NCBI GenBank assembly: GCA_902524895.1
Contig: CABZFH010000005.1
Span: forward strand, 1 to 64,000
Direction: 5' to 3'
DNA length: 64,000 bases
Source of the DNA: an uncultured Alphaproteobacteria bacterium
GTDB taxonomy: Bacteria; Pseudomonadota; Alphaproteobacteria; Methylaequorales; Methylaequoraceae
Shown here: positions 4,029 through 64,000 of the stretch, piece after piece
How positions within the stretch are numbered: the stretch's first letter is position 1
How the letters are laid out: every line of letters begins with the position of its first letter
Program-made: the position numbers and the translations under genes
The notes under the pieces: model-generated
The model's database searches: none
Told to the model about the DNA's origin: nothing
What the model saw: the letters and a program-made list of their open reading frames with translations, nothing else

Positions 4029-4951
4029 TGGTTGTAACTTGGATTAAAAATTTAAAAAAGAGTCTATCTAAATCTTCTTCAGTAATTGGAGAGGGAATAA
4101 AGAAAATTATAAAAAGTAGAAAAATTGACGATTCAACTTTAGAAGAACTCGAGAATCATTTAATTTCATCTGACATAGGAATAGTTTTTTCAGAAGAAAT
4201 TATAACAGAAATTAAAAACAAAAAATACCTAGACACTAGTGTTGAGGCAGTTAAAAAAATAATATTGAATTCAATAATTAAGGTTTTAAAACCTCTAGAA
4301 AAGGAAGTTTTGATAGGTAAAATCAACACACACCCTTTTATAATTTTAGTGGTTGGAGTTAATGGTGTTGGAAAAACTGCTACAGTCGGAAAATTAGCTT
4401 ATAAATTTTCATCTCAAGGTAAAAAAGTAGGTATTGTTGCAGCTGATACTTTCAGAGCTGCAGCGGTTGAACAATTAGAAATTTGGTCGAAAAGAACAAA
4501 TTCAACTTTTTTTTCCTCTAAAATTGAAAACGCTGATCCTGCTTCACTTTCTTATTCATCATACCTAAAAGCAAAAGAGCAAAAAATTGATATATTAATA
4601 ATTGATACCGCAGGAAGATTACACAACAAATCTAATTTAATGGATCAACTTACAAAAATAATTAGAGTTTTAAAAAAAATTAATGCAAGTGCCCCTGATG
4701 AAGTGATTTTAGTACTTGACGGAAACACAGGACAAAACTCAATAAAACAGGCTAGTGTTTTTAAAGAAATATGTGACATTAATAGTTTAATAATTTCAAA
4801 ATTAGATGGCACAGCTAAGGGCGGTGCAGTAATTCCAATAGGTAAAACTTTAAAAATACCTATTATCGGTTTAGGAGTGGGTGAGCAAAAAGAGGATTTA
4901 GTAAAATTTGAAGCTGATGAGTTTGCTAGGGCATTATTAGATATTAATTAG
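4028..4951 (+). CDS. ftsY: Signal recognition particle receptor FtsY
   Basis: SRP receptor GTPase, partner of Ffh at the inner membrane. The NG domain is clear: VGVNGVGKTATVGKLA near residue 110, DTFRAAAVEQL, DTAGRLHNKSNLM and SKLDGTAKGG. The acidic A domain of E. coli FtsY is absent, giving about 307 residues, as in other small genomes. I take the ATG at 4028, whose A overlaps the last base of the mtaB stop (TGATG); a GTG at 4025 in the same frame is the alternative. Its 3' end overlaps the convergent sugar dehydrogenase gene by 8 bp. Confidence 0.96.
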   Translation: MVVTWIKNLKKSLSKSSSVIGEGIKKIIKSRKIDDSTLEELENHLISSDIGIVFSEEIITEIKNKKYLDTSVEAVKKIILNSIIKVLKPLEKEVLIGKINTHPFIILVVGVNGVGKTATVGKLAYKFSSQGKKVGIVAADTFRAAAVEQLEIWSKRTNSTFFSSKIENADPASLSYSSYLKAKEQKIDILIIDTAGRLHNKSNLMDQLTKIIRVLKKINASAPDEVILVLDGNTGQNSIKQASVFKEICDINSLIISKLDGTAKGGAVIPIGKTLKIPIIGLGVGEQKEDLVKFEADEFARALLDIN

Positions 4952-6110
4952 CTTTTTCTATTCTCCATAAACTAGATTTGCTGTCATCTATTATAAAAAA
5001 TATTTCCCCTTTATGATTAATTTCTAAATCCCTTATTCTTCCAAATTTTTTATCAAGAATTAATTCTTTCCTTTGAATTTTATTATTTTTAATTTCAAGT
5101 CTTATAATATTTTCGATTTTTGTTGCAACTATCATTAAATCTCCTGACCATTCTTTAAAAACATCACCTTTGTAAAATAAAAAATTACCAACTCCAATCG
5201 ATGGAACCCATGTGATAAAAAGCTTGTCATATTTTTTTTTAAAAGGTCTATTACCAATTTTTTTGCCTGAGTATTCTTTCCCTCCCCAAGCAATATTTTT
5301 CCAACCTAAGTTACCTCCAAATTTTACAGTTGCAATATTGTCACCGCCCATCGGACCATGTTGTGAAAAGTAAATATTTCCGTCGTGAGGAGATTTAGAA
5401 ATACCTTGAGGATTTCTTAAACCTATTTGAAAAATCTCTGGGAGCCAATTAGGATAACCTGCGTATTTGGGGTTATCTTCTGGTATTGCTCCATCAATTT
5501 TTATTCTTATAATACTTCCTGGATGTTTGGTTGGGTCTTGGGCGATCATTCCCTGATCTCTCTCGCCAATACCCGCATACAAAAAATTATCTTCAATTAT
5601 TATTCTAGAGCCCCAATGTTTATTATTATTAAATTTAGAATTAGATATAAAGAGAATTTCAAAGTTCTTGATTTCATTATCTACTAATTTTCCGCGACCA
5701 ATGGCAGTACTTCCAGATTTTACTTTTTGGGTGGGGGTAGTATTTGAGTGTAAGTGACTGTAAGAAATGTAGACGTAACCATTATGATATAAAATATCAA
5801 GCAAGCCTCCTTGTCCAAAGATCATTCTACTATTAAAATATTTTAAGCTATTTATATTATGTTTAACTAAAGTTTTTTTACCATTACTTGTATTAACTTT
5901 GAATATTTTGCCATTTTTCTCAGTAATTAAAATATTATTTTTATTTATAAATGTCATTCCCCAGGGATAATTAAAACCTTCGGAAACGCTAGAAACCTTT
6001 AATTTGGTTTTACTTTTTTTATATTTTTTGAAATCACTGTACAACTCTGTGGCTTCCATTATTTCTGAAAAGCACGCTAGAAAAATTAATAAAAATAAAT
6101 TAATCCACAT
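4944..6110 (-). CDS. PQQ-dependent sugar (aldose) dehydrogenase, GSDH/YliI family
   Basis: A six-bladed beta-propeller quinoprotein of the glucose/sorbosone dehydrogenase family (PF07995), which oxidises aldoses in the periplasm with pyrroloquinoline quinone. Seen in the 388-residue sequence: an N-terminal hydrophobic signal (WINLFLLIFLACF), PWGMTFI, GQGGLLDI, HWGSRII, a family-typical QIGLRNPQG and HGPMGGDNI. Export is predicted; a lipobox is not convincing. The gene overlaps the start-side partner (WaaL-like) by 11 bp and ftsY by 8 bp. Substrate is unknown. No PQQ biosynthesis gene is in the window. Confidence 0.85.
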   Translation of the reverse strand: MWINLFLLIFLACFSEIMEATELYSDFKKYKKSKTKLKVSSVSEGFNYPWGMTFINKNNILITEKNGKIFKVNTSNGKKTLVKHNINSLKYFNSRMIFGQGGLLDILYHNGYVYISYSHLHSNTTPTQKVKSGSTAIGRGKLVDNEIKNFEILFISNSKFNNNKHWGSRIIIEDNFLYAGIGERDQGMIAQDPTKHPGSIIRIKIDGAIPEDNPKYAGYPNWLPEIFQIGLRNPQGISKSPHDGNIYFSQHGPMGGDNIATVKFGGNLGWKNIAWGGKEYSGKKIGNRPFKKKYDKLFITWVPSIGVGNFLFYKGDVFKEWSGDLMIVATKIENIIRLEIKNNKIQRKELILDKKFGRIRDLEINHKGEIFFIIDDSKSSLWRIEKAN

Positions 6111-60535: not shown

Positions 60536-60600
60536 TTCATATATAATAACTGTATTAGAAAAAAATTAAATTTATTTTGTATATTATAAAGGTAATTGTT

Positions 60601-62238
60601 ATGAGCAGGGAAAGTATGGAATATGATGTCGTTGTAGTTGGTGGAGGTCCATCAGGTCTTGCAGCAGCAATAAAGTTTAAACAGCTTTGTATAAAAAATA
60701 ATAAAGATTTTAGTATATGCGTTGTGGAAAAAGGTTCACAAATTGGCGCTCATACCCTTTCCGGGGCAGTTCTTGAAACAAGAGCTTTAGATGAACTAAT
60801 ACCAGATTGGAAATTGAAGGATTCACCAATCAAAACAAAAGTAACAAATGAAAAATTCATGTACTTGACCGAAACTGGTGCTATTAAAATTCCCACGATA
60901 TTTTTACCCAAAGTTATGCATAATAAGAATAATTACATAATCTCATTAGGCAATTTGAATATTTGGTTAGCAAAACAAGCAGAGGAACTGGGAGTTGAAA
61001 TTTATCCTGGTTTTGCAGCTTCAGAACTAATCATTGAGAACGAAAAACTTCTTGGAATAACAACAGGTGACCATGGTATTTTAAAGAACGGTGAAAAAGG
61101 CCCCAATTACCAGCAAGGAATAGATATTTTTTCAAAATATGTTCATTTCGCAGAGGGGTGTAGAGGACATTTAGGAAAGGAAATAATAAAAAATTTTGCT
61201 CTAGATATCAATTCCCAGCCCCAAACTTATGGAATTGGTTTAAAGGAGCTTTGGGAAATAAATAATGAAAAATCAAATCCTGGTGAGGTTGTTCATTCCG
61301 TAGGGTGGCCATTAGATCAAGAAACATACGGAGGTTCTTTTCTTTATCATTTAGACAAAAATCTTGTTTCTGTTGGGTTTGTAATTGGACTTGATTATAA
61401 AAATCCATATCTTTCACCATATGATGAATTTCAAAAGTTTAAAACTCATTCAAAGATCAAGGATATATTTAAAGGTGGTAAGAGAATATCCTATGGTGCA
61501 AGAGCATTAAATGAAGGTGGATGGCAGTCGCTTCCAGATCTAGTTTTTGATGGAGGGTGCTTAATTGGTTGTGAAGCTGGGACTTTAAACACCCCTAAGA
61601 TCAAAGGAACCCACACAGCCATGAAATCCGGCATGATTGCCGCTGAAGAAACATTTAAAGCTTTACTAGTTGGAAGAAGGAATGACAAGCTAGACACTTA
61701 TCAAAAAATATTTAAATCATCATGGGCTGGCAAAGAACTATATAATGCTAGAAATGTGAGACCTGCATTTAAATGGGGATTAAAAATAGGTATGTTGCTG
61801 TCAGGCATTGATCAAAATATTTTTCGTGGTAAAGCTCCTTGGACACTATCTCATCACGTTGAAGACCATAAATCTTTACTTGATATTTCAAAAGTAGAAA
61901 AAATTAATTATCCAAAACCAGATGGCATATTAACTTTCGACAAATTGACCAATGTATCTTTTACTTCAACTTACCATGAAGAAAACCAGCCTGGACATCT
62001 TAAAATTATTAACGAAGAAATCCCTATAAGTTATAATAATAGACATTTTGACTCACCAGAACAAAGGTATTGTCCCGCTGGTGTTTATGAAATAGTAAAA
62101 GATTCTGAAAAATTAAAACTTCAAATAAACGCACAAAATTGTATTCATTGCAAAACATGTGATATTAAAGATCCAAGCCAAAATATTAGATGGGTGGTTC
62201 CAGAAGGAGGTGGAGGTCCAAATTATACAAATATGTAA
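60601..62238 (+). CDS. Electron transfer flavoprotein-ubiquinone oxidoreductase
   Basis: Passes electrons from ETF (fatty acid, amino acid, dimethylglycine or sarcosine dehydrogenases) to ubiquinone at the inner membrane. The 545-residue protein has an FAD-binding VVVGGGPSGLAAAIKF, GSQIGAHTLSGAVL, GTHTAMKSGMIAAEE and a C-terminal 4Fe-4S site CPAGVYEI ... CIHCKTCDIKDP. ATG 60601 follows AAAGG and replaces the upstream TTG of the track. Confidence 0.97.
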   Translation: MSRESMEYDVVVVGGGPSGLAAAIKFKQLCIKNNKDFSICVVEKGSQIGAHTLSGAVLETRALDELIPDWKLKDSPIKTKVTNEKFMYLTETGAIKIPTIFLPKVMHNKNNYIISLGNLNIWLAKQAEELGVEIYPGFAASELIIENEKLLGITTGDHGILKNGEKGPNYQQGIDIFSKYVHFAEGCRGHLGKEIIKNFALDINSQPQTYGIGLKELWEINNEKSNPGEVVHSVGWPLDQETYGGSFLYHLDKNLVSVGFVIGLDYKNPYLSPYDEFQKFKTHSKIKDIFKGGKRISYGARALNEGGWQSLPDLVFDGGCLIGCEAGTLNTPKIKGTHTAMKSGMIAAEETFKALLVGRRNDKLDTYQKIFKSSWAGKELYNARNVRPAFKWGLKIGMLLSGIDQNIFRGKAPWTLSHHVEDHKSLLDISKVEKINYPKPDGILTFDKLTNVSFTSTYHEENQPGHLKIINEEIPISYNNRHFDSPEQRYCPAGVYEIVKDSEKLKLQINAQNCIHCKTCDIKDPSQNIRWVVPEGGGGPNYTNM

Positions 62239-63892
62239 GATTTATTGTGTATTTATTATTATTTGCTTAATATCTAGTTCTTTACCATCAAAAGAAAGTA
62301 AATATATAAAAAATAAAGTTTCTGAATCTTTACCTACAGAATCTGGAACTTATCTATCTTGGATTATAGCAGAAAAAAACGGTAATTTTAAGAAAGCATT
62401 CGATTTAGTATCAAAAACCAAGTCGTCTTTAACTGAAATTGATATCTTAAAGAAGGCATTTTTTTTGTCATTAAATCATGGAGATTGGGAAACCACCATA
62501 TTTTTTGCCAAAAGAATTGATAATTTAGATTCTAATTTTTTTTTTTCTAAATTAGTTTTAGCTACTCATGAGTTTATTACGGGTGATCCAAAAAAATCTG
62601 AACAGCTATTTAAAAAAATAGATTTTTCAATAACAAACAAAAAGTTTATTAATATAATTTTAGCATGGATAAATTTTTCATTTAATAATAATCCCCAAAT
62701 TTTAAATGCAATTAATGGGAAAGAAATAAGACCTGAAAATTGCTCACCCCTTGAATGCTTACATTCCGCACTTCTAAACGAAATCTCAGGAAAAACTGAA
62801 AAGTCCAACAAATTTTTTGAAAAGCTTAAAATAAACAATCAATCTTATAGAATTTTGGAAATTCTTTTAGTTAACTATCTTGAGAAAAAAGAAATTGATT
62901 CTTACAAAGAAATTCTTGAAAAATTAAAAAATGAAAATCTTTCTGTTTCTAACTTTAATAACTTAACTAATACAAAAAAACAATTTAGCTCGATAGAAAA
63001 TCCAAATGATGGTTTGGCAGAGGTTTTTCTAAATATTGCAGGTTGGTTTTATGAAAATAAAATTTACGATATTTCAAGTTACTTTTGTAATATTGGATTG
63101 AAAATAAGACCTGACTTTTATTCTTTAAAATTTTTATTAGCAAATGTTTATGAAAAACTTGGATACAAAGAGGCTTTGTTAGATTTTTTAAATGATTCAT
63201 CTCAACCAAATATTTATGATCTTCATTTGTCAAAAATTAAGTTACGTGCTCTAAATAGTTTAGAGAAAAAAGATAAATCGATTCAAATCTTAAAAAAACT
63301 CTTGAAAAGAAACCCTCATAATAATGAAGTAATTTTAATATTAGCTGATTCTCTCAGAAGCATAGGCAAGTTCAAAGAATCAATTGCTTACTATGATAAT
63401 GTCATAGAAAAAATTGATCAAGAAGATCCTCGATATTGGAATATATTTTATTCTAGAGGAATTTCATATGAACGCTTAAAAAAATGGAAGTTAGCAGAGC
63501 GTGATTTCCTATTGTCATTAAAATTAAACCCTGAAGCACCTTATGTTCTTAATTATCTTGGGTACAGCTGGTTAGAACGAAAAAAAAATCTAAAAAAAGC
63601 ATTAGGTCTAATTAAAACAGCTTCTGAGATTCAACCAAATGATGCATATATAACTGATTCACTTGGATGGGCATACTTTTTGTTAGGAGAATATGAAATG
63701 TCTATTAAAATTTTGGAGCATGCAATTAGAATGTTACCATCTGATCCAACTCTCAATGATCATCTTGGAGATGCTTATTGGAAGGTAGGCAGAAAATCTG
63801 AGGCAATTTCTCAGTGGAAAAAAGTTCTTGTTTTTAAACCAAGTAAAGAGTTAAAAAGAAAAGTTGAACAAAAAATCTTTAAACTGCGATGA
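62210..63892 (+). CDS. Tetratricopeptide repeat protein, probably exported
   Basis: A protein of about 560 residues with an N-terminal hydrophobic stretch (IYCVFIIICLISSSLPS) and many TPR units; the last, such as PYVLNYLGYSWLERKKNLKKAL, YITDSLGWAYFLLGEYEMSI and LNDHLGDAYWKVGRKSEAISQWKK, are clear. This TPR type usually follows ETF-QO in alphaproteobacteria. The start is uncertain: GTG 62210 or GTG 62159, both inside the ETF-QO gene, or a non-standard codon after the AGAAGGAGG at 62201-62209. Function unknown; scaffold or lipoprotein-like periplasmic adaptor is a guess. Confidence 0.85.
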   Translation: MEVQIIQICKIYCVFIIICLISSSLPSKESKYIKNKVSESLPTESGTYLSWIIAEKNGNFKKAFDLVSKTKSSLTEIDILKKAFFLSLNHGDWETTIFFAKRIDNLDSNFFFSKLVLATHEFITGDPKKSEQLFKKIDFSITNKKFINIILAWINFSFNNNPQILNAINGKEIRPENCSPLECLHSALLNEISGKTEKSNKFFEKLKINNQSYRILEILLVNYLEKKEIDSYKEILEKLKNENLSVSNFNNLTNTKKQFSSIENPNDGLAEVFLNIAGWFYENKIYDISSYFCNIGLKIRPDFYSLKFLLANVYEKLGYKEALLDFLNDSSQPNIYDLHLSKIKLRALNSLEKKDKSIQILKKLLKRNPHNNEVILILADSLRSIGKFKESIAYYDNVIEKIDQEDPRYWNIFYSRGISYERLKKWKLAERDFLLSLKLNPEAPYVLNYLGYSWLERKKNLKKALGLIKTASEIQPNDAYITDSLGWAYFLLGEYEMSIKILEHAIRMLPSDPTLNDHLGDAYWKVGRKSEAISQWKKVLVFKPSKELKRKVEQKIFKLR

Positions 63893-64000
63893 TTAGTAAC
63901 TCTATAAAAATCTTTGATACATTTGCTGAAGCATTCCCTATGAAATGTTCACGTCTTATTGTCACGGCTGAAACAGAAAAGTGGGCAAGAATTGCCGCCA
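63889..64000 (+). CDS. ftr: Formylmethanofuran-tetrahydromethanopterin formyltransferase (partial, N-terminal 37 codons)
   Basis: Translating from ATG 63889 gives FDTFAEAFPMKCSRLIVTA then EKWARIAA, running off the window. This matches the N-terminus of Ftr (FhcD in methylotrophs), whose family start is a DTFAEAF-M--R-I-TA---WA--AA pattern. The enzyme transfers the formyl group between tetrahydromethanopterin and a methanofuran analogue in bacterial formaldehyde oxidation. In many alphaproteobacteria ispE follows this TPR gene; it does not here. The ATG overlaps the TPR stop (ATGA), suggesting cotranscription. Only a quarter or less of the gene is visible and the call is from memory of the family. 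Confidence 0.8.
   Translation, partial: MISNSIKIFDTFAEAFPMKCSRLIVTAETEKWARIAA

Follow-up and report, generated by a model that had tools for sequence, protein, structure and literature searches.

The window, a stretch of 64,000 nucleotides that corresponds to C5:1-64000 of the 119,415-bp contig C5, ends inside the 5' part of a formyltransferase gene. With high confidence, this fragment can be regarded as the start of a functional fhcD of an uncultured marine member of the order TMED127/Methylaequorales, the product of which would form part of the Fhc complex in the oxidation of methanol-derived formaldehyde, with fhcDC having been moved to its present place by a genus-level rearrangement. A small, AT-rich ocean genome with an apparently full H4MPT formaldehyde-oxidation route is thereby confirmed, in a lineage for which active methylotrophy in the open ocean had already been described.

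The fhcD gene and its neighbours

The features around the right edge of the window are as follows.

60577..62238, plus strand: ETF-QO (electron-transfer flavoprotein:ubiquinone oxidoreductase); an ORF whose function was read from the sequence, without a family scan
62159..63892, plus strand: TPR-repeat protein; TPR families and synteny, exact ORF start uncertain
63889..64000, plus strand: 5' part of fhcD/ftr, 37 codons; PF01913, TIGR03119 and PDB match
C5:64782-65588: fhcC, directly downstream of fhcD with a 4-base overlap; TIGR03122
C5:65585-66187, strand opposite to fhcC: MlaC-family gene, read as hpnM

The first-pass annotation had recognized the 37 terminal codons as the N-terminus of Ftr, and the complete gene bears this out. 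The reading frame opens with the ATG at 63889, runs past 64000 without a stop, and occupies 63889-64785 on the parent contig, encoding 298 aa; neither an early stop after 64000 nor a match to a different family was seen. In profile searches, the protein scored 200 bits against PF01913 (E 1.4e-59), 412.3 bits against TIGR03119 (cut-off 292.6), with profile positions 1-288 of 288 covered, and 428 bits against NF002554. Its best PDB match, over residues 4-297 (E 2.8e-97), is chain D of 6s6y, which we take to be the Fhc complex of Methylorubrum extorquens. The gene is intact and its family match is far above chance; by family, FhcD is predicted to have formylmethanofuran:H4MPT formyltransferase activity.

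Directly upstream, the stop of the TPR gene overlaps the fhcD start by 4 bases (ATGA, 63889-63892), and the placement of ETF-QO upstream of the TPR gene is conserved across TMED127. Downstream, FhcC reaches 184.9 bits against TIGR03122 (cut-off 130.65), and past the MlaC-family gene the family scan identified an epimerase, a probable ispH and a radical SAM/DUF3463 protein. From their families and order, the genes beyond fhcC may represent a hopanoid-type set of hpnM, hpnA, ispH and hpnH. The expectation that a full fhc/mch/fae cluster would start at the right edge was thus not borne out: only fhcC lies there, followed by the HpnM/HpnA/IspH/HpnH-type genes, and the ORFs and family scan of the downstream stretch contain no fhcA, fhcB, mch or fae on C5 after fhcC. 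The genome carries two HpnH-like radical SAM genes on separate contigs, at L007:2450-3565 (C1) and L002:8205-9332 (C5), and in MED657 (L038) two such genes stand in tandem.

The remaining genes of the H4MPT and XoxF pathway

The genome (1.43 Mb in 27 contigs, 84.5% complete) has a GC content of 29%, in agreement with the first description of its source as an AT-rich alphaproteobacterium with a small genome. The following genes of the pathway, together with a sugar dehydrogenase gene in the window, are relevant here.

C22:1616-3268: fhcA, adjoining folE and hisI; 634.7 bits, cut-off 392.75
C1:41643-42719 (L007:11643-12719), minus strand: divergent fhcB candidate, a 358-aa ORF; position, partial profile match, weak PDB matches
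C1:58904-60736: xoxF; best PDB matches 6oc5/6oc6
C1:62394-65520, strand opposite to the xoxF set: probable pqqE, D, C and B; assigned by eye
Window 4944-6110, minus strand: probable PQQ sugar dehydrogenase of the GSDH family; PF07995

The C1 gene set, from fhcB through a solute-binding protein, spans about 41.6-62.4 kb (~20 kb). After fhcB follow genes for a pterin-4a-carbinolamine dehydratase (PCD), a beta-RFAP-synthase family protein, an Mpt_N (MtdB-type) dehydrogenase and Mch; then several ATP-grasp proteins, a CitG-family protein, Fae, a hydantoinase-family protein, 4HFCP_synth, DUF447 and a DHPS-like protein; and finally a flavoprotein, an amino-acid-kinase protein, a FolB-type protein, XoxF, a cytochrome c and a family-3 solute-binding protein. 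In the family scan, Fae scored 252.6 bits, Mch 398.2 bits and the Mpt_N (MtdB-type) protein 116.7 bits, and the beta-RFAP-synthase, DHPS-like, 4HFCP_synth, ATP-grasp and FolB genes match families of H4MPT/methanofuran synthesis. XoxF has the lanthanide XoxF structures 6oc5/6oc6 as its best PDB matches (E 4.6e-262), and alignment to 6oc5 and 6dam showed that it retains the DEWDYDG motif, including the extra Asp of the DYD motif, presumably a lanthanide ligand. The cytochrome c encoded next to it is of the methanol-metabolism type, below the family cut-off.

FhcA, like FhcD, finds its best PDB match in 6s6y, here to chain A and over nearly its full length; fhcA lies divergent to folE (GTP cyclohydrolase I) and beside hisI at L009:855-3268 and in L117-L127. 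FhcB is the weakest assignment: the divergent candidate matches TIGR03129 partially, at 53.5 bits and below the cut-off of 327.8, and its PDB matches to FwdB/FhcB are weak, with the gene occupying the fhcB position seen in relatives. The fhc genes are therefore spread over three loci, on C5 (fhcD, fhcC), C1 (fhcB) and C22 (fhcA), and do not form one cluster; a single cluster is the usual arrangement and not a functional requirement.

The first-pass proposal of an H4MPT route with methylotrophy is sustained by the presence in the genome of fhcA, the fhcB candidate, fhcC, mch, mtdB, fae, XoxF with its cytochrome, and probable pqqBCDE. It had asked, as support, for fhcABC and mch in one cluster with a full-length Ftr; the genes themselves were recovered, with FhcB below cut-off, but not in the same cluster. 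The PQQ-type dehydrogenase gene that it had noted in the window is probably PQQ-linked, but belongs to the GSDH-family sugar dehydrogenases (PF07995), whereas the methanol dehydrogenase XoxF is encoded on C1; the window gene is possibly the gdh reported to be diel-transcribed with xoxF in PMC12542740. Its appeal to moaB, as a sign of the cofactor of formyl dehydrogenase relatives, carries little weight: that gene is part of the general housekeeping of the molybdenum/tungsten cofactor and tells little about Fhc.

The reactions, complex formation and physiological use can be predicted from the homology to Methylorubrum extorquens. XoxF would oxidize methanol to formaldehyde, which Fae would couple to H4MPT, and MtdB and Mch would then convert the adduct to formyl-H4MPT. 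FhcD would transfer the formyl group from H4MPT to a methanofuran analogue, and FhcA would hydrolyse the resulting formyl-methanofuran analogue to formate, with FhcD, FhcA, FhcB and FhcC together making up the bacterial formyltransferase/hydrolase (Fhc) complex.

H4MPT enzymes can serve detoxification in other proteobacteria, and the occurrence of Ftr in several alphaproteobacterial families of the sample described below would also suit a heterotroph in which the pathway is real but mainly removes formaldehyde rather than drawing energy from methanol. This explanation is improbable in view of the location of XoxF, the methanol-metabolism-type cytochrome and the solute-binding protein close to the H4MPT genes, and also because, according to PMC12542740, xoxF5 tops the transcripts of a TMED127 genome in abundance and 2-oxoglutarate dehydrogenase is absent from 64 genomes.

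Break-up of the fhc cluster

In TMED127 outside the window's genus, every fhcD locus complete enough to be read has the order PCD-fhcB-fhcD-fhcC, in most cases with hpnM and hpnA next in line, and every well-matched TPR locus, bar one second copy (L170), has the order ETF-QO-TPR-ispE, or TPR-ispE at contig ends. From this gene order, ispE and not fhcD appears to be the ancestral neighbour of the TPR gene. Both the window's genome and G028/AG-337-B08 have the tails of the two blocks exchanged, giving ETF-QO-TPR-fhcD-fhcC and PCD-fhcB-ispE (window 63889-63892; L007:11643-11646; L174). G028 and AG-337-B08 (L037) are apparently one genome, since their contig coordinates coincide, and the exchange therefore rests on two independent genomes. 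Like the TPR/fhcD junction, the fhcB/ispE junction, placed by ORF coordinates at L007:11643-11646, is a 4-base start/stop overlap. A single inversion would yield exactly both junctions, provided that the two blocks stood in opposite orientations. The reciprocal rearrangement split fhcDC from fhcB and set it behind the ETF-QO/TPR genes with the junction genes undamaged.

Contamination by, or misassembly with, a contig of another methylotroph is hardly credible as the source of the fhcD locus. Its TPR-fhcD order is unlike that of other TMED127 genera, but AG-337-B08, from the same genus, shares this order, has the reciprocal fhcB-ispE junction and carries an fhcD that is 98.7% identical. Moreover, resemblance to other TMED127 extends to FhcD, FhcC and the hopanoid-type neighbours, and GC is 29% throughout.

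The fhcA gene adjoins folE-hisI in all 12 of the 12 TMED127 fhcA loci inspected, with hisI beyond the end of one truncated locus, whereas in most other sampled alphaproteobacteria and in methanotrophs it adjoins fhcD. The break-up of the cluster thus had two stages: fhcA was separated across the order, and fhcB was then parted from fhcDC in one genus. It is a doubtful, though conceivable, consequence that the exchange rewired regulation, placing fhcDC in the ETF-QO/TPR transcription unit and ispE in the fhcB unit, so that the Fhc subunits would no longer be coordinated from one operon. In the main text of PMC12542740, the fhc genes, the fhcB/fhcD split and the tail exchange were not found; the exchange and break-up seem to be a small, undescribed detail of gene order. 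Its value is modest, as a clean case of operon break-up in streamlined genomes in which both new junctions preserve the genes.

Lineage, distribution and comparison with known systems

On the basis of its relatives, the genome can be placed in TMED127/Methylaequorales. A close named relative is the single-cell genome AG-337-B08 (FhcD 98.7% identical), and MED657 (L038) and MED715 (L045), which carry close Ftr copies, fall together with the window in both Ftr identity and gene order; both are listed among the TMED127 'Clade X' genomes in PMC12542740, Clade X being the name under which the same clade was noted earlier. An assignment to AEGEAN-169/HIMB59 was rejected, as that group's main papers give no methanol link and the relatives of the genome are TMED127. 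The order was sampled with 32 genomes in one family and 12 genera, matching the account in PMC12542740 (Glass et al. 2025), which describes one family, 12 genera, genomes of ~1.5 Mb and XoxF5, and proposes the name Methylaequorales. The same paper describes a 'methylotrophy island' with XoxF5, H4MPT synthesis and C1 transfer, and adjoining hopanoid genes, and a 2026 review repeats the finding of methylotrophy in TMED127. As this system was published in 2025, the present finding is an instance of it.

Of the 32 TMED127 genomes, 22 have Ftr, 22 have Mch and 27 have an FhcA that exceeds the cut-off. In several genomes one of the three occurs without another; with a completeness of 50-90% for most of the set, such absences probably reflect assembly gaps. 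Across a spread sample of the class, Ftr occurs in 21 of 385 alphaproteobacterial genomes, consistent with the first-pass view of the H4MPT route as rare. As put there, for small AT-rich marine genomes, the view holds in part: the enzyme is rare in the class, but families f23, f118 and f130 of the sample, with genomes of 0.9-1.4 Mb, also have it, as does TMED127 order-wide. Across TMED127 genera, FhcB (L007:11643-12719) and FhcC (L002:4782-5588) diverge much faster than FhcD, with identities to the proteins of the window's genome of about 30-44% for FhcB/FhcC and 64-75% for FhcD.

In the Ftr tree, all TMED127 copies form one group (support 100/98); the deep branches that place this group among other alphaproteobacteria and gammaproteobacterial methanotrophs have weak to moderate support. 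Acquisition of the TMED127 Ftr from gammaproteobacterial methanotrophs, an idea raised by the high FhcD identity to these organisms, is not supported: the tree keeps both groups separate, with other alphaproteobacteria beside them, and because the deep branches are only moderately supported, no transfer is claimed. FhcD is 63-66% identical to that of the gammaproteobacterial methanotrophs Methylobacter and Methylovulum, closer than many alphaproteobacterial copies, whereas fhcB-A-D-C is contiguous in those organisms and their Ftr forms a group separate from TMED127. Compared with the Fhc complex of Methylorubrum extorquens (6s6y), chains D and A are the best structural matches of FhcD and FhcA, but the window's genome differs in its three dispersed fhc loci and very divergent FhcB. 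The closest likeness is to the TMED127 island of PMC12542740, with which the genome shares the order, XoxF5, H4MPT synthesis and C1 transfer, PQQ synthesis, adjoining hopanoid genes and the ~1.5 Mb AT-rich genome type; in the window's genus, by contrast, the island is divided between fhcB and fhcD.
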